Positions 9,388 to 28,891 of a stretch of 64,000 nt of DNA are shown here, piece by piece (position 1 is the first letter of the stretch; the number at the start of each line of letters is the position of its first letter). The notes beneath the pieces were generated by a model. It did no database searches. It saw nothing but the letters and a program-made list of their open reading frames with translations, and had not been told where the DNA came from. The translations under genes were made by a program, and so were the position numbers. The DNA lies in NCBI RefSeq assembly GCF_002197845.1, contig NZ_NIDE01000017.1:666712-730711 (forward strand), read 5' to 3'. The stretch comes from Fimbriiglobus ruber (lineage in GTDB: Bacteria; Planctomycetota; Planctomycetia; Gemmatales; Gemmataceae).

Positions 9388-9843
9388 ATGTTTGCCATGC
9401 CGAATGCGAAGTTTCTAAAAAATCTCATGATCATACCGCTCGCACTCTTCCCCCTCATAATACTGGGTTGCGGTGGCGACAGCGCTTCGGTCAGCGGGAC
9501 GGTGACCTACAAAGACGTACCAGTCGAAAAGGGCAACATCGCTTTTTACCCCGCCGAAGGCAAAGGGCAGTCGGCGGGCGGCGAAATTATCAACGGGAAA
9601 TACACGGTCAAAGGCGTTACGCTGGGTAAGAACCGCGTCGAGATTACCTCATCCGCAAAGATGAAAGGGCCCCCGCCTTCCGGCATGGCTGATTCGATCA
9701 AGAACCCGCCCGCTCTTGACCTGTCGACCGTAATTTCCACGAAGGCCACCGGGAACAACGCAATCCACGAGATCACGTCGAGTACAACACTGGATTTTGC
9801 GCTCAAGCCGGCAGTCGCGACGGACGGGAAAGAAATCAAATAG
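9388..9843 (+). CDS. Small lipoprotein with carboxypeptidase-regulatory-like fold
   Basis: A 151-residue predicted lipoprotein. The N-terminus has positive residues, a hydrophobic core (IIPLALFPLI) and a lipobox ending LGC, so the mature protein would start at Cys and be membrane anchored. The sequence after it (SASVSGTVTYKDVPVEKGNIAFYPAEG) matches the common planctomycete pattern in which a single beta-sandwich, carboxypeptidase-regulatory-like domain follows the lipobox; GGEIINGKYTVKGVTLGKNRVEI continues it. Such genes are regularly found beside DUF1559 genes, as here. A second ATG at 9397 is an equally good start. Function unknown. Confidence 0.8.
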   Translation: MFAMPNAKFLKNLMIIPLALFPLIILGCGGDSASVSGTVTYKDVPVEKGNIAFYPAEGKGQSAGGEIINGKYTVKGVTLGKNRVEITSSAKMKGPPPSGMADSIKNPPALDLSTVISTKATGNNAIHEITSSTTLDFALKPAVATDGKEIK

Positions 9844-9955
9844 AAGTCCACTGACCCCAACAGAAGACATGCACTGACGATCCGGCCGCACCAGCCATTC
9901 GGCAACGGATTGTGTGACCATTTCCGTCGCACTTGCGGTGCAAAGGACCGGCTGC

Positions 9956-11797
9956 ATGCGGACGTCGCACCTTATTGCCGTCGTTGTAGGACTTGCTTCC
10001 GCGGCGGCGTGTTGGTGGGGATTTCGCCCGGCGCCGACGATTGACAGCCCGTCTCCTGCCACGCAGCCGGCACCCGCGACCGTCCCCACGAGCCCCGTCC
10101 GCTTTAACGAAGTCGCCCGCAGTGCGGGCATCAATTTCTGCCACCAGGATGGTGCTACGCCGACGCTTTACACCCCCGAGATGATGGGGAGCGGCGTCGC
10201 GTGGATCGATTTCGACAAGGACGGCTACCCGGACCTGTTCTTCGTTCAAGGCGGCCAGTTTCCCCCCGACCCCAACGCCCCGCCCGCCGGACCGACGAGC
10301 CGGCTTTACCGAAACCAGGGAGACGGGACGTTTATTGACGTCACGGCTCGGGTCGGTCTCGTCACGCCCGGATACGGTCAGGGCGTGACCGTGGGCGACT
10401 ACGACAACGACGGGTTTCCCGACCTGTTCGTCACCCACTTCAACGGCGGCTGGTTGTATCACAACGAACCGGACGCGGCCGGCGGTCGGCGGTTCCGCGA
10501 CGTGACCAAGGAAGCCGGCATCGCGGTTTCCGGCTGGTGTACCAGTTGTGCATTTGGCGACCTGCACGGGACCGGCCACCTCGACTTGTTCGTCTGCCGG
10601 TATTTCGAGCTGGATTTGAAAACGTATCCCGTCTGCACCGAAAAAGGCCCCGACGGTCCGGTCCGAACCGCGTGTCCTCCCAAATACTTCCCCGGTACCC
10701 GCAGCTTTTTGTTCCGCAACAACGGCAACGGGACGTTCACCGATATCTCCGACACGGCGGGCCTCGAAAGCGGCGGGAAGGCGCTCGGGGTCGTCATTCT
10801 CGACCTGGACGGGGACGGCCGGCAGGACATTTTTGTGGGAAACGACGAGGTGTCGAACCACCAGTATCAAAATCTGGGGAGCGGCCGGTTCCGGTCGGTC
10901 GGCGTCCTCACCGGGACGGCCGCCACGGCCCTCGGCCGGCCGATGGGTAGCATGGGAATCGAGGCCGGCGACATGACCGGGAACGGCCGGCCCGACCTGT
11001 TCGTGACCACGTTCTTTCACGAAAGCACCGTTTTATTTCGCAACCAAGGGAACAACTTTTTCACGGACGTCAGCCAGGGGGCCGGGATGTTCGCCCCGAG
11101 TCGGGACAAGGTCGGGTGGGGGACGGCTTTGTTCGACGCCGACAACGACGGCAACCCCGATCTGTTCGTCGCCAACGGGCACATGCACCGCGAAGCGGCG
11201 CGGATGATGATCGACGAAACCGGCCTCCCACAGATGTACGCCCAACTCGCCCAGTTCTTCCGCGGCAACGGCCGGGGCCTTTTCCGGGAAGAGTCGGAAG
11301 CCGTGGGCCCGTACTTCCGGACTCCCTGGGTCGGCCGCGGCGTGGCGCAGGCGGATTACGACAACGACGGCCGCGTCGACCTGGCGATCAATCACAACGG
11401 CGGCCCTCCCGCACTCCTCCGCAACTTGTCCGACACACCGCACCACTGGGTCCGGTTGGAACTGGAAGGCTCGCGGCAGCGGAACCCGGCCGGGAGCAAC
11501 CGGGACGCGGTCGGGGCGGTGGTCACCGTCCGCGCTGGCGGGCGCTCGTTCGTCCGCTTTCTGAAGGGGGGCGGGAGCTACTATTCCGCCCACGATACGC
11601 GCATCTCGGTCGGCCTCGGCGATGCGACCAGGGTAGACGAGATCACCGTTCGCTGGCCGAACGCGGCCGGGACCGTCCAGCGGTTCGGGCCGCTCGCGGC
11701 GGACCGAGGCTATCGGTTGCTCGAAGGGGTCGCCGAACCACTCCCCGCGGTCGGCCCGGTGCCGCGCCACTCGCCACGACCGGAGATAACGCCATGA
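9956..11797 (+). CDS. CRTAC1-family FG-GAP repeat protein (first of pair)
   Basis: An exported protein of about 613 residues built from FG-GAP/VCBS integrin-like propeller repeats, ending in an ASPIC/UnbV domain. The N-terminus contains one hydrophobic segment (LIAVVVGLASAAACWWG) as signal or anchor. Calcium-binding-type repeats recur: DFDKDGYPDLFFVQGG, DYDNDGFPDLFVTHF, DLDGDGRQDIFVGND, DADNDGNPDLFVANGH and DYDNDGRVDLAINHN. The ASPIC part is HHWVRLELEG through SNRDAVGAVVTVRAGGRSFVRF. The ATG at 9956 is preferred to a GTG at 9914. It overlaps the next gene by ATGA, indicating translational coupling to a paralogue. The role is probably extracellular binding or scaffolding; no enzymatic activity is established for the family. 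Confidence 0.88.
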   Translation: MRTSHLIAVVVGLASAAACWWGFRPAPTIDSPSPATQPAPATVPTSPVRFNEVARSAGINFCHQDGATPTLYTPEMMGSGVAWIDFDKDGYPDLFFVQGGQFPPDPNAPPAGPTSRLYRNQGDGTFIDVTARVGLVTPGYGQGVTVGDYDNDGFPDLFVTHFNGGWLYHNEPDAAGGRRFRDVTKEAGIAVSGWCTSCAFGDLHGTGHLDLFVCRYFELDLKTYPVCTEKGPDGPVRTACPPKYFPGTRSFLFRNNGNGTFTDISDTAGLESGGKALGVVILDLDGDGRQDIFVGNDEVSNHQYQNLGSGRFRSVGVLTGTAATALGRPMGSMGIEAGDMTGNGRPDLFVTTFFHESTVLFRNQGNNFFTDVSQGAGMFAPSRDKVGWGTALFDADNDGNPDLFVANGHMHREAARMMIDETGLPQMYAQLAQFFRGNGRGLFREESEAVGPYFRTPWVGRGVAQADYDNDGRVDLAINHNGGPPALLRNLSDTPHHWVRLELEGSRQRNPAGSNRDAVGAVVTVRAGGRSFVRFLKGGGSYYSAHDTRISVGLGDATRVDEITVRWPNAAGTVQRFGPLAADRGYRLLEGVAEPLPAVGPVPRHSPRPEITP

Positions 11798-23840: not shown

Positions 23841-24929
23841 TTATCTCGCGGCGTGAATCGATTGAATCACCCGGTCCGCACGGGCGACGAGTTCGTTCGG
23901 TAAAGGGGCGTAAGCCGTGCGGCTGGCGAATTGTTGCCCGTCGTGCGTCACCCAGTTCAAGAAGTCGACAACGACGCGGCGGCGCTCCGCCGGCTGAGAT
24001 TGGTAACAGACCGCCCAGATCACGCCACAGATCGGGTACACATCGGCCCCGGATCGGTTCGTCAGTTTGAGCTCTGAATCCTCACTCACCCAGGCCGCCC
24101 GGGCGGCTGCCGTCATGTTCTCCGGCTCGGCCCGGATGAACGCAGTCTTGTCGCAGTTCTGGACGGCTCCGTACTGGAGGTGCAGGTCGATGTCGAACAC
24201 GTTGACGAGGTCGAGATACCCGATCGCCCCTTCGGTCAAGTGAACGGTGTCGGCCATCCCCTGGCTCCGGGCCACGCCCGCGCCGACCGGCCACACGACC
24301 TCGCTCCCGACGCTGCCCACTTCATTCCGCCAAAGTTCGCTGGCGCCGGCAAGATACTCGGTGAACAAGCTGGTGGTCCCGCTCGAATCCCCACGGTGGA
24401 CGACCACAACCGGTACGTCCGGTAAGGCGACCCCCGGGTTGATCGCTCTCAGCGCGGGGTCATTCCACCGGGTGATCTTGCCCAAGAACAGCCCGGCCAA
24501 AACGTCGGCCGTAAAGTTCAGCGGCGGCTTGTCTTCCAACGACTTGATGTGGTAGACCGGCACGACCGCACAGATCACGACCGGGACGTGAGCAATTTCC
24601 CCGCCCTTGGCTCGGGCCGCGTACTTCTGTTTGTCGGTCAGCGGGGCGTGGACGAACCCGATCGCGTACTCCCCGTCGAGCGTTTTCGTCACCCCCGCCG
24701 TCGAGCCCGTCGAATCGTACTCGACGTCCACGCCGCTGTCCTCTCGGTAAGCGGCGCGCCAGCGGTTCTCCAGGATAATTTGCGCGACCGAAGTGCCACC
24801 CGTCTTGAGCCGAACGTAGGCCGGTGCCGTGCTCGTTTCAAAAAGAGAGGACGAGTAAAACAACAGCAGGCTCGGACCGACACCGACGAAAACGATGGCG
24901 ATAAGTCTGACGATCGTACCCCGGCTCAT
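23841..24929 (-). CDS. PstS-like phosphate-binding protein, paralogue 1
   Basis: A 362-residue substrate-binding protein of the phosphate ABC transporter family with an uncleaved-looking N-terminal hydrophobic helix (VRLIAIVFVGVGPSLLLFYS). Phosphate-contact segments are present: KTGGTSVAQIILENRW, DSTGSTAGVTKTLDGEYAIGF and VVVVHRGDSSGTTSLFTEYLA. Most PstS proteins start the first motif with GA(G/S)xT; here it is TGGTSVA, so ligand details may differ. It is closely related to the protein at 25509, with ~70% visible identity, and both genes have CTCGGGAGAGC just upstream of the start. No pstC, pstA, pstB or phoU gene is in the window. Confidence 0.85.
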   Translation of the reverse strand: MSRGTIVRLIAIVFVGVGPSLLLFYSSSLFETSTAPAYVRLKTGGTSVAQIILENRWRAAYREDSGVDVEYDSTGSTAGVTKTLDGEYAIGFVHAPLTDKQKYAARAKGGEIAHVPVVICAVVPVYHIKSLEDKPPLNFTADVLAGLFLGKITRWNDPALRAINPGVALPDVPVVVVHRGDSSGTTSLFTEYLAGASELWRNEVGSVGSEVVWPVGAGVARSQGMADTVHLTEGAIGYLDLVNVFDIDLHLQYGAVQNCDKTAFIRAEPENMTAAARAAWVSEDSELKLTNRSGADVYPICGVIWAVCYQSQPAERRRVVVDFLNWVTHDGQQFASRTAYAPLPNELVARADRVIQSIHAAR

Positions 24930-25150: not shown

Positions 25151-25308
25151 TCTCGCGAGCCGCTCGGGAATCATCAGATGCGAATCGTGACCTGTGTCGG
25201 CTCGTTGTTGGTATCTCTCGGCTTACCAACGAGATACGGTTATCCTGTTTGTATGCTCATGAGACTTGGGGCCACAAATACGAAGTGCCAGTCGCCTCGC
25301 CTGCCCCC

Positions 25309-25480
25309 GCGGAATTGGCTTCGTTTGGTAAAAACAGGTGCCGGGCACCTCAGCGGCCAACTTCAGACCGCGGCCATACGACGCGGAATTGGCTTCGTTT
25401 GGTAAAAACAGGTGTTGTCGTCGCTCAGGGACCGGGGCTTGAGCCCCGGTGGGATTGGGTTCGTTTGGTAAAAGCCGATG
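25309..25480 (-). repeat. 32-bp interspersed repeat, three copies
   Basis: The unit starting GCGGAATTGGCTTCGTTTGG is identical at 25309-25340 and 25383-25414, and a degenerate copy lies at 25449-25480. Spacings are 74 and 66 bases. Read on the minus strand each unit gives a short open stretch resembling FYQTKPIP or LPNEPNP. It lies in a spacer and looks like a dispersed genomic repeat, not a CRISPR array, because spacers differ and the third copy has decayed. Confidence 0.85.
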
Positions 25481-25508: not shown

Positions 25509-26600
25509 TTATTGGGCCGATTTAATCGACTGGATCGCCTGATCCCCACGGGTGACCAGTTCCGCCGGTAGGGGCGCGTAGGCGGTGCGGCCGGCGAACT
25601 TCTGGCCGTCGTGCGTGGCCCACTGGAGGAAGTCCGAGACGTTCTTGTAGTGGGCTGCCGGTTGGGACTGGTAACAGACCGCCCAAATGATGCCGCAGAT
25701 CGGGTACGCATTGGCCCCCGACCGGTTCGTCAACTTCAGCGCGGCGTCACCCGATCCACCGGCGGCGGCCCCGGCGGCCGCCGTCATGTTTTCCGCTTCG
25801 GCCCGAATGAAGCCGGTCTTGTCGTGATTCTGCACGGCCCCGTGCTGGAGGTGCAGGTCGATGTTGAACACGTTGACGAGGTCGAGGTATCCGATCGCCC
25901 CTTCGGTCAGGTGGACCGTGTCGGCCATCCCCTGGCTCCGGGCCACGCCCACGCCGACCGGCCACTTGACCTCGCTGGCCGCCGGCCCGATCTCCTTGCG
26001 CCAGAGTTCGCTGGCGTCCGCAAGATACTCGGTGAAGAGGGCGGTGGTCCCGCTCGAGTCCCCCCGGTGGACGACCACAACCGGCAGGTCCGGGAGGGCG
26101 ACGCCCGGGTTGATCGCCTTCAGCGCCGGGTCGTTCCACTTGGCGATCTTGCCCAGGAAGAGTCCGGCCAGGACGTCGGCCGTGAAGTTCAGCGGCGGCT
26201 TGTCTTCCAGTTCCTTGACGTGGTACACCGGCACGACCGCGCACACGACGACCGGGACGTGGACGACGTCCCCCCCTTTGGTCTTGGCCGCGTCCTTCTG
26301 CTTGTCGGTCAGCGGGGCGTGGACGAACCCGATCGCGTACTCCCCGTCGAGCGTCTTCGTTACCCCCGCCGTCGAACCCGTCGAGTCGTAGGCGATCTCG
26401 ACGTTCTTTTTTTCCCGAAAGGCGCTCTTCCAGCGGTTTTCCAGGATGATTTGTGCGACCGACGTGCCGCCCGTCTTCAACGGGACGTAGGTCGGGATCT
26501 CTTCTTTATTAAAAAAGCCGGGCGAATAGTAAACGACCGTGCCGAGACCGGCCCCGACCAGAATAATGACGAGCAGGCGGACGACGGTACTTCGATTCAT
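25509..26600 (-). CDS. PstS-like phosphate-binding protein, paralogue 2
   Basis: A 363-residue paralogue of the protein at 23841, with an N-terminal hydrophobic anchor (VVRLLVIILVGAGLGTVVYY), then KTGGTSVAQIILENRW, DSTGSTAGVTKTLDGEYAIGF and VVVVHRGDSSGTTALFTEYLA. Lysine replaces arginine at several surface positions relative to paralogue 1, and a Gly/Ala-rich insert (AAAGAAAGGSGDA) occurs near residue 280. The ATG follows CTCGGGAGAGC. Family role is high-affinity phosphate capture in the periplasm for a PstCAB permease, which must be encoded elsewhere if these proteins serve transport. Confidence 0.88.
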   Translation of the reverse strand: MNRSTVVRLLVIILVGAGLGTVVYYSPGFFNKEEIPTYVPLKTGGTSVAQIILENRWKSAFREKKNVEIAYDSTGSTAGVTKTLDGEYAIGFVHAPLTDKQKDAAKTKGGDVVHVPVVVCAVVPVYHVKELEDKPPLNFTADVLAGLFLGKIAKWNDPALKAINPGVALPDLPVVVVHRGDSSGTTALFTEYLADASELWRKEIGPAASEVKWPVGVGVARSQGMADTVHLTEGAIGYLDLVNVFNIDLHLQHGAVQNHDKTGFIRAEAENMTAAAGAAAGGSGDAALKLTNRSGANAYPICGIIWAVCYQSQPAAHYKNVSDFLQWATHDGQKFAGRTAYAPLPAELVTRGDQAIQSIKSAQ

Positions 26601-26932
26601 GTTGCTCTCCCGAGGCGAAACCGGCGTGGAGAAGTCGCGAACGTGGCGGCCGCGAGGTCGAACGGCCCGCGAGCTAGACGGCGCGTTCGCGCCCAGTAGT
26701 CTTCTGACGCGGCCCGCCGGGAGTCAAAGGATTTCCGAACCGATATAAGAATAAGAGGAAAGTTTCACGAAACGTCGATTCGCGACAGCGCGAGCCCGTC
26801 TCAACCGGGTCACTCTGCAATTGGCTCGTCTTGGCGGCTGCGGTCAGAAGTCGTTGCCGTCGAAGCAGGAAAATGCTAATCCGTCACTCGGGGCGGTGAA
26901 CCTGCCGCCCGACGCACACAGGAGCGCACGCA
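26601..26932. promoter_or_regulatory. Divergent spacer between PstS paralogue 2 and the secreted methyltransferase
   Basis: This 332-base spacer has no supported gene. It carries the second copy of the PstS upstream element at 26747-26770 and a GGAG ahead of the methyltransferase ATG at 26933. Two divergent promoters are expected here; I could not pick out convincing -35/-10 pairs. Confidence 0.45.
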
Positions 26933-27820
26933 ATGCGAACGTTCTCACGATGGGGGCTGGCGGCCTTGCTGACGGCCGCCGCGGTCGGGCTGGCTGGTAA
27001 CGCGGGCCGGGCACGGGCTCAGGCCCAGGTGCCGGCCCAGGTGCCGGAGGAGAAGAAGCCGGCCGCGGTCAAATCCGCGATCAAGGTGACACTCCCGCAA
27101 GACGACGCGGAACTCCTGATCGAGGACAAGCCGACCAAGGCGACCGGGAAGTCCCGCGAGTTCATCACGCCCCAACTCGACGTCGGGGGCAAGTACGAGT
27201 ACAAGTTCTCCGCCAAATGGCGGCCGAACAATTACACGGTCATCACCCGCAACAAGACGCTGACGTTCAAGGCCGGCGACGAGATCGTGGTCGACCTGAC
27301 CAAGGACGACTCGAACGACAAGGCGGTCATCCGGTACGTCCCGACCCCGGACGACATCGTCAAGAAAATGATCGAGCTGGCCAAGGTCGGGAAGGACGAC
27401 GTGGTGTTCGAGCCGGGGTGCGGGGACGCCCGGATCACCGTCGCCGCCGTGAAGGCCGGGGCCAAGAAGGGCGTCGGCATCGACCTCGACCCGGAACGGG
27501 TGGCCGAGTCCAAGGAGACCGTCAAAAAGGCCGGGGTCGAAGGGAAAGTCGAGATCCGCCTCGGCGACGCGCTCGACATCAAGGATTTCTCGGACGCGAC
27601 CGTCGTCTTCCTCTACATGGGGAACGAGTTCGACATGCTCATCCGCCCGATCCTGTGGAAGCAGCTCAAGGTCGGTACCCGCATCGTCTCCCACCGCTTC
27701 GTGATGGGCGACTGGAAGCCGGAAAAGACGCTCCAGATCAAGGGCGACGACGGCGACGACTACGAAATCCACCTGTGGACGATCACCAAGGAAGTTAAAG
27801 ACAAGGCCGAGAAGAAGTAA
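26933..27820 (+). CDS. Exported TIGR03000-domain protein fused to a class I SAM methyltransferase
   Basis: A 295-residue protein with three parts. Residues 1-30 form a signal peptide (LAALLTAAAVGLAGNAGRARA). Residues ~45-125 are a TIGR03000 domain, a planctomycete-specific beta-sandwich (AIKVTLPQDDAELLIEDKPT, YEYKFSAKWRPNNYTVI). The rest is a Rossmann-fold methyltransferase: VVFEPGCGDARITVAAVKAG is motif I, GIDLDPERVAESKETVKKAG motif II, and VEIRLGDALDIKDF the next. It resembles protein- or histone-type class I methyltransferases more than rRNA enzymes. The combination puts an SAM-using fold behind an export signal, which is unusual because SAM is cytoplasmic. Signal peptide use could be checked experimentally. 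Confidence 0.85.
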   Translation: MRTFSRWGLAALLTAAAVGLAGNAGRARAQAQVPAQVPEEKKPAAVKSAIKVTLPQDDAELLIEDKPTKATGKSREFITPQLDVGGKYEYKFSAKWRPNNYTVITRNKTLTFKAGDEIVVDLTKDDSNDKAVIRYVPTPDDIVKKMIELAKVGKDDVVFEPGCGDARITVAAVKAGAKKGVGIDLDPERVAESKETVKKAGVEGKVEIRLGDALDIKDFSDATVVFLYMGNEFDMLIRPILWKQLKVGTRIVSHRFVMGDWKPEKTLQIKGDDGDDYEIHLWTITKEVKDKAEKK

Positions 27821-27847: not shown

Positions 27848-27889
27848 CGGGCGGGGCGGGCTCACATCTTTGTGAGCCCGCCCCGCCCG
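27848..27889. terminator. Strong 19-bp hairpin between convergent genes
   Basis: A perfect 19-base stem (27848-27866 with 27871-27889) closes a TCTT loop. It starts 27 bases after the methyltransferase stop and lies 65 bases beyond the stop of the GNAT gene, so it can serve both genes. The sequence beyond it is not T-rich on either side. Confidence 0.75.
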
Positions 27890-27953: not shown

Positions 27954-28457
27954 TCAGGCGAGTACGTCTTCGGCGGTCGAAATCGGCAGGTAGAGGTGCA
28001 ACGGGGCGTCGAGTAGCGGAGTGAAGCCGTACTTGCGGTAGAAAGCCGCTGCCTGGTCGTCGATCGCGTCCACCTCGACCGCGTATACGCCCAACCCTTT
28101 TGACAGGTCGAGTGCCCGCTTGAGTGCGTCGAGTAGCAACCCCTCGCCCAGCCGCATCCCTTGGGCCGACTGATCGACGGCCAGACGAGCCAACAGGACG
28201 ACCGGGATCGGGTGCTTCGGCAGCTTACGGGAAGCATCCGGCGGGACCTGTGCGAACGCGACCGCTCCGGCGGCCAGGGTGTAATACCCGAGGACGCGCT
28301 TCCCGCCCTTCGGAACGGCCACGAACGTCTTCCCCAGACGACGTTTCTCGTACTGGTTGACGCGGGAGTGGATGAAGTCGTCGAGCGGCGGCTTCCCGCA
28401 GGCGAAAGCGGCCCGCTCGTGCCCCTTGCCGAACAGCTCGACGACCCACTCAACCAC
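27954..28457 (-). CDS. GNAT-family acetyltransferase, probable toxin of a toxin-antitoxin pair
   Basis: A 167-residue GCN5-related N-acetyltransferase. VVLLARLAVDQSAQGMRLGEGLLLDALKRAL is the acetyl-CoA-binding motif A (QxxGxG-type, here QGMRLGEG), with DQAAAFYRKYGFTPL near the end. Size and the opening FDSGxxxLDxFIxxx-like stretch (FACGKPPLDDFIHSRVNQYEKR) fit the TacT/AtaT class, in which the enzyme acetylates aminoacyl-tRNA and blocks translation. The GTG start overlaps the end of the upstream small gene by eight bases, the usual antitoxin-toxin arrangement. Target tRNA and toxicity are not visible from sequence. Confidence 0.85.
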   Translation of the reverse strand: MVEWVVELFGKGHERAAFACGKPPLDDFIHSRVNQYEKRRLGKTFVAVPKGGKRVLGYYTLAAGAVAFAQVPPDASRKLPKHPIPVVLLARLAVDQSAQGMRLGEGLLLDALKRALDLSKGLGVYAVEVDAIDDQAAAFYRKYGFTPLLDAPLHLYLPISTAEDVLA

Positions 28458-28728
28458 GGCGGGCCTTGTGACGGGCTGCCGCCTTCTTGAGGGCCGGGGT
28501 GGGTGCCGGCGGGGCGGCCAGCAGCTCCAGAAAGCGGTCGCGGTCGCGGTCGGACAGCGGGGACGCAGACTCCTCGGCGAAGAGTAGATCGTCTTCGGCC
28601 ACCACCTTCGCCCGGCGTATCCGGACCTCCGTTTCGCTCACAAACTCGACGATGACGGTGGCGTTGGCAAACGACTTGGGCAGGACCAGTCGGGCTTTCG
28701 CGTCTGTGGTCCGAGTTTCGGTATGCAT
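28450..28728 (-). CDS. Probable antitoxin for the GNAT toxin (DUF1778-like C-terminus)
   Basis: A 92-residue protein encoded just ahead of the GNAT gene with an 8-base overlap. The ATG at 28728 has GGGAGG six bases upstream; the longer frame to 28779 is not needed. The C-terminal part (PLSDRDRDRFLELLAAPPAPTPALKKAA) matches the toxin-neutralising tail of DUF1778 antitoxins, which usually reads LSERDxxxFLEALxNPPxPNxAL. The N-terminus (TTDAKARLVLPKSFANATVIVEFVSETEVRI) does not resemble the usual ribbon-helix-helix and looks AbrB- or beta-barrel-like. As DNA-binding antitoxins repress their own operon, autoregulation is expected. Confidence 0.78.
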   Translation of the reverse strand: MHTETRTTDAKARLVLPKSFANATVIVEFVSETEVRIRRAKVVAEDDLLFAEESASPLSDRDRDRFLELLAAPPAPTPALKKAAARHKARRG

Positions 28729-28891
28729 TACGCCTCCCTCGCTCATGTTGGTAAGTAATGGTAACGCAAAGTGGGACACAAACTCAAGTGGGACGATCCC
28801 CGATGACCCCGGCGCGGCCCTTGTTCGGCCGCGCCGACGGGGCTACCATGTTTTACCTGCCGAGACTTTCCCCGCCCGAACCCGAGGGACC

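Follow-up and report, generated by a model that had tools for sequence, protein, structure and literature searches.

A single gene in the window (the whole 64,000-nt stretch of Fimbriiglobus ruber DNA analysed here; source genome 12.36 Mb, designated G000) is confirmed to encode an export-type signal, a TIGR03000 domain and a class I methyltransferase in one open reading frame. As judged from sequence comparisons, the product is probably a genuine methyltransferase of the extracytoplasmic space, with lysines of envelope proteins as its possible targets, and is likely to be active in place. The family identity of the methyltransferase, the export signals found throughout that family, and a permease gene linked to it in relatives are observations that go beyond the original prediction for this DNA. 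Should the enzyme work in the compartment that its signal points to, SAM would have to be present outside the cytoplasmic membrane, something that bacterial physiology does not take for granted; the permease linkage makes extracytoplasmic SAM directly testable.

Organization of the gene and its product

The gene and its associated features are arranged as follows.

26933..27820 (+): complete gene (signal peptide, TIGR03000 domain and class I methyltransferase), 295 aa, ATG start, TAA stop
26920..26924 (+): Shine-Dalgarno-like AGGAG, 8 nt 5′ of the ATG, from sequence
26933..27019 (+): predicted Sec/SPI signal peptide, residues 1–29, predicted cleavage after ARA, from sequence and a rule-based call
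27020..27070 (+): linker, residues 30–46, pLDDT being low as far as residue 40 or so
27071..27298 (+): TIGR03000 domain, residues 47–122, all-beta in the model, from NCBIfam and models
27326..27790 (+): aKMT-like seven-beta-strand methyltransferase domain, residues 132–286, from profiles, sequence search and Foldseek
27410..27433 (+): motif I, EPGCGDAR, residues 160–167, from the conservation table
27848..27889 (+): perfect 19-bp inverted repeat with a 4-nt loop, 3′ of the stop codon, a possible terminator with no T run, from sequence

The protein begins with MRTFSRWGLAALLTAAAVGLAGNAGRARA, followed after the predicted cleavage site by QAQ, and has an n-region with arginine, a hydrophobic core, and an A-x-A site. 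This agrees with the Sec signal peptide originally proposed, and a home-made signal rule, which 45% of background ORFs also pass, calls it SPI. The TIGR03000 domain said to come next is matched by the NCBIfam model with 78 bits (cut-off 43.1, E 3.7e-22), placing the protein in that family. The class I methyltransferase with an intact motif I is also borne out, as the Pfam models Methyltransf_25 and Methyltransf_31 exceed their gathering scores and EPGCGDAR is present. The equivalog model NF041081 (archaeal protein-lysine methyltransferase) scores 120 bits on residues 146–286, below its cut-off of 200, and the protein is not a member at that level; by fold and SAM motifs it belongs to the wider aKMT-like seven-beta-strand methyltransferase family.

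An AlphaFold2 model built with 88 sequences has a mean pLDDT of 90.4 and is confident from about residue 41 to 294, behind a leader of low confidence that contains one helix. The solved chains nearest in sequence are 5bxy, 5fa8 and 5jwj (E 2e-36 to 1e-33). In a Foldseek search with the model, 5bxy is the nearest solved structure (TM(target) 0.92, rmsd 1.0, 43% identity), and together with the aKMT structures 5fad and 5fa8 (TM(target) 0.90 and 0.92) it is far ahead of other matches. Modelled alone, the TIGR03000 domain is all-beta with a pLDDT of 87, and has no significant match among solved structures, the best being chain Y of 6hif from Kuenenia (E 0.031).

The archaeal comparator, the broad-specificity aKMT4 of Sulfolobus islandicus (5fa8, 5fad, 5jwj), shares the fold, the SAM motifs and 38% identity in the domain. 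However, it is a 161-aa chain that matches from residue 7 and lacks a leader, whereas the window protein adds a signal and TIGR03000. The bacterial comparator, 5bxy, is an SAH-bound ‘RNA methyltransferase’ from Salinibacter ruber, and is 100% identical across the 152 residues compared to the product of locus L214, whose leader reads MSRLRFLSVVLLALGLLLGHGPRSGYAQ and is Sec-like. The isolated catalytic domain of a protein with a signal can thus hold SAH in a crystal. Unlike the window protein, L214 is without TIGR03000 and its gene comes directly after a permease gene; the ‘RNA’ name is the depositors' label, and such names would come into question if the explanation given below is true.

Export signals across the family

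Leaders were scored with a rule that requires a positive n-region, a 9-residue uncharged core, and then either an A-x-A-like site or a lipobox, with any start codon before the domain allowed. The best 80 of 103 loci from a pattern scan of genome contigs (Planctomycetota, Cyanobacteria, Acidobacteria, Bacteroidota genera and Betaproteobacteria by record titles) were combined with loci from other searches to give 125 ORFs, or 122 after dropping three duplicates (L012 twice, and L013). The rule is passed by 113 of these 122 distinct ORFs (81 SPI, 21 SPII and 11 Tat-like), compared with 153 of the 343 remaining ORFs in these loci (108 with ATG; Fisher p 5e-23) and 5 of 250 readings in two wrong frames. 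A background of this size makes the rule permissive, but the family excess is nonetheless large. Seven of the nine misses (L046, L050, L065, L071, L077, L086, L087) have a leader by eye and L011 has a lipobox-like stretch by eye; the ninth is L002.

The closest loci in the window's family (L095–L123) all have an ATG and a Sec-type SPI signal before TIGR03000 (29/29), and a start after the signal peptide is rejected on this conservation. The original prediction had noted that a true start past the signal would leave the protein cytoplasmic. That reading is disfavoured by the same 29 loci and by the lipoprotein and Tat-like signals of more distant relatives, which are different routes to one and the same side of the membrane.

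A second sample was collected with the NF041081 profile, so that the choice of loci would not be biased by peptides of the window itself; group names follow the record titles of the centre loci. Matches are present in 15 of 146 cyanobacterial, 8 of 198 Bacteroidota, 27 of 149 Acidobacteriota, and 8 of 299 Pseudomonadota genomes. No genome match exceeds the 200-bit cut-off among the 15, 146, 198, 149 and 299 searched; the two-copy protein L020 scores 312.7 bits as a whole protein, owing to its two domain copies. Among the loci listed, 63 of 72 pass the signal rule, or 57 of 64 once the eight that overlap earlier loci (L200, L204, L236, and five in the array L144) are removed. By group the passes are Cyanobacteria 14/16, Bacteroidota 10/10, Acidobacteriota 25/28, and Pseudomonadota 14/18, with ten of the 18 Pseudomonadota loci coming from a single genome, G395. 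The nine misses include five with a hydrophobic start by eye (L231, L232, L249, L263, L267) and four that appear cytoplasmic (L209, L210, L253, L255); L244 passes the rule yet resembles L209, being by eye a long fusion without an obvious leader. Export signals are not peculiar to the window gene, and their presence across the aKMT-like bacterial family is well supported by these leader calls.

Conservation of the SAM site

We compared 29 domains from L095–L123 with 94 other domains. The motif I residues Gly162, Gly164 and Asp165 are invariant in all 29 close and all 94 other domains. Residue 160 is acidic, being Glu in the window protein and in 26 of the 29 close domains and Asp in all 94 others, and position 184 is Asp or Glu in every domain compared. 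A C-terminal SHxF..W block is also strongly conserved: Ser253 (92/94), His254 (76/94), Trp261 (89/94) and Trp282 (93/94) recur in the other domains, and all four are kept in 29/29. The invariant SAM-site residues lend no support to a degenerate enzyme. The option that the enzyme is simply not active, left available by the original prediction, is disfavoured because these motif I residues are invariant and because the 5bxy structure, which shows the catalytic part of a protein with a signal, contains bound SAH.

A LAT-like permease gene adjoins the enzyme gene in many relatives

A new observation here is that a LAT-like APC permease gene adjoins the methyltransferase gene, on the same strand, in five phyla and alongside varied enzyme architectures. 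Clustering of neighbours at 103 loci identified one permease family adjoining the enzyme gene in 30 of them, the arrays L144 and L145 included. In the pattern-scan set 28 of 80 loci (26 of 72 where at least 1,500 nt of upstream sequence exist) have it immediately upstream in the same orientation, and the other upstream neighbours are 10 on the same strand and 18 on the opposite one. Among the 494 non-methyltransferase ORFs of L015–L094 there are 30 permease ORFs, 29 of which are adjacent to the enzyme gene, the remaining one being an upstream piece of the L053 permease. A second permease gene occurs in L088, downstream and in the opposite orientation. The permease is present in 26 of the 72 loci listed for the profile sample, all on the same strand and five of them downstream (23/64 without overlaps), distributed as Cyanobacteria 13/16, Bacteroidota 5/10, Acidobacteriota 4/28, and Pseudomonadota 4/18. 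Loci without a permease outnumber those with one in both sets (52/80 and 46/72), the flanks being limited. Within the profile sample, no significant association between signal and permease was found (25 of 63 with a signal and 1 of 9 without; p 0.14).

The window's family contains 28 permease loci (at least 36% identity, among those listed with sequence; one is L020 again), and a methyltransferase gene lies within the flank of about 1.5 kb in 11 of them. The remaining 17 have no aKMT-like gene in this short flank, and the neighbours of 16 of these include no common exported SAM enzyme by eye. G000, the window's genome, has no permease match at E≤1e-30, and neither do near relatives such as G307, G315, G337–G339, G344, G346, G365 and G366, which makes the window gene independent of the permease. 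Genomes with close fusions (e.g. G300–G305, G328) have permease matches of only about 27–30% identity, which we take for general paralogues.

The L020 permease matches LAT-type APC exchangers (LAT1, y+LAT and relatives) in the PDB (E 2e-46 to 9e-34). The best model is TIGR00911 (L-type amino acid transporter), with 219.8 and 191.1 bits for two permeases, below its cut-off of 701.8. The permeases also differ from LAT1 in having GGWN(E/D)A where LAT1 has GGWNYL; all 29 readable scan-set permease ORFs are acidic at this site (3 of 32 being unreadable), as are the 17 unlinked permeases, whereas two more distant relatives are not. From the linkage only, we propose that the linked permease exchanges SAM and SAH across the membrane.

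Possible role of the enzyme

We lean, a little above even confidence, towards an exported and active aKMT-like enzyme that methylates an envelope target, with the permease supplying SAM in many relatives. The protein would be made with its Sec signal, cross the cytoplasmic membrane, and be trimmed as predicted. Outside, the TIGR03000 domain could serve as a spacer or a binding module. The aKMT-like domain would bind SAM and methylate a cell-envelope target, for which the side chains of lysines in exported proteins are the likeliest candidates, lysine being suggested by analogy with the aKMT family. The window protein would then be one branch of a widespread group of bacterial exported aKMT-like methyltransferases, and in many of its relatives the adjacent LAT-like APC permease would be the likely route for SAM in and SAH out. 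With no permease in G000 at the threshold above, SAM there would depend on a different carrier, on leakage or on an external source. The puzzle of an exported SAM enzyme, as originally raised, is real and is sharpened here; of the possibilities raised with it, inactivity and a later start are disfavoured, and action in the periplasm with supplied SAM is the option that we favour. A broader version, about which we are doubtful, is that several phyla methylate envelope proteins outside the cytoplasmic membrane with an exported or lipid-anchored aKMT-like enzyme and a co-encoded, dedicated permease swapping SAM and SAH, the TIGR03000 branch having lost the adjacency and the permease being missing or replaced in G000.

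An enzyme that is exported but is no longer a methyltransferase in place, its fold instead binding or sensing SAM/SAH or nucleosides or catalysing another reaction, is an unlikely alternative in which the role changed because the compartment would hold no SAM. Conservation of the SAM-site residues and the SHxF..W block, including positions beyond motif I, argues against it; it is consistent with the lack of a permease in G000, with the Glu that begins motif I in the window protein and most close relatives in place of the Asp of all 94 others, and with there being, to our knowledge, no established SAM pool outside the cytoplasmic membrane. SAM is made in the cytoplasm, and the target, or the enzyme itself, could instead be methylated prior to or in the course of translocation; the enzyme could also be kept inside by a later start or a retained signal. 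Translation might in principle begin at GTG codons at residues 33 and 37, and a few family members appear cytoplasmic, but a good ribosome site fits the ATG and the signals are at the same place in each of the closest relatives. As 21 distinct relatives are moreover called lipoproteins, and L002 in the same genome has its aKMT-like domain behind a signal and a PQQ_2 propeller (in a frame that holds a TAG), we consider such action improbable.

Compatible with our preferred explanation of an exported, active methyltransferase, and a serious if not the expected possibility, is that the linked permease moves an amino acid (a methylated product, lysine or methionine) and not SAM, or is linked for some other reason. 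LAT and related exchangers move amino acids, and the best model for the permease, although well below its cut-off, is that of the L-type transporters. The linkage, on the other hand, is specific and co-oriented and recurs in five phyla with varied enzyme architectures, and the acidic GGWNE/D residue is compatible with a cationic substrate, yet the 17 unlinked members are acidic too.

If true, the preferred explanation would mean that the membrane-bound lysine methyltransferases of mitochondria have a counterpart in bacteria. FAM173A/B (ANT-KMT and ATPSc-KMT), likened here from their published description, are mitochondrial, whereas the window protein is bacterial and contains TIGR03000, a domain not known from either FAM173 protein. 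As described in PMC9006661, they are aKMT-related, have an N-terminal hydrophobic putative membrane anchor and act on inner-membrane proteins, and lysine 52 of ANT faces the matrix; PMC5828452 reports that D94A in FAM173B abolished significant activity. We found no paper on a periplasmic or exported methyltransferase family of this kind in the open-licence PMC literature, and papers there on secreted methyltransferases concern the clubroot parasite and Mycobacterium tuberculosis.

Relatives and genomic surroundings

Matches at E≤1e-10 occur in 73 of the 95 genomes of the window's family. A wider-phylum sample, with at most 8 candidates scored per genome, has matches in at least 4 of 294 genomes, the window's own included. 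In a FastTree phylogeny the window domain, L095–L123 and L015–L017 form one clade of 34 domains (support 0.994), and TIGR03000 is present in 6 of 6 planctomycete relatives tested. The record with L015 and L020 is apparently also from the window's family, as L020 is present unchanged in G327. L020 (3470–5167, +) encodes a signal, TIGR03000 and two methyltransferase domains with KKEEPKK-rich linkers, directly 3′ of its permease gene. L002 (1495–3435, −), from the same genome as the window, combines a signal-like leader, a PQQ_2 propeller (85.7 bits) and an aKMT-like domain, but a TAG within the propeller breaks the frame. A pseudogene and an assembly error are both possible; in either case the locus gives a second example of fusion to a module of the exported type.

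Two Betaproteobacterial loci, L144 (4746–14737) and L145 (4427–12510), are tandem arrays of exported aKMT-like methyltransferases of ~280–340 aa with extra C-terminal sequence. Each has 6 detected methyltransferase ORFs and a permease at one end, and the genomes G394 and G395 have 17 matches each. A Spermine_synth domain protein (PF01564, 29.2 bits) lies inside the L145 array at 9841–11580. A second large neighbour cluster of 33 loci, whose representative (L039, 2066–3862) has PD40 propeller repeats, is taken for a generic family.

No operon is seen around the window gene, and its neighbours, two PstS-like genes and a GNAT/TacA-like pair, suggest no partner. Clustering of 20 regions from the window's family likewise identified no partner common to all, with a small exported protein in 3, although the neighbour listing is readable for 10, longer overlapping ORFs having displaced the methyltransferase in the rest. 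The two PstS-like solute-binding protein genes (PF12849) are similar and in tandem, at 23841–24929 (−) and 25509–26600 (−). On the other side, at 27954–28779 (−), a GNAT acetyltransferase gene lies beside one for a short protein matching TacA1 (27.2 bits, cut-off 21), an arrangement like that of TacAT-type toxin-antitoxin pairs. Three copies of a 33-nt repeat lie at 25308–25480 in the window, with distances of 74 and 66 nt between them. Allowing up to 2 mismatches, the genome contains 47 occurrences of the 22-nt core (0 in a reversed control), at several sites in runs with a spacing of ~73–76 nt.
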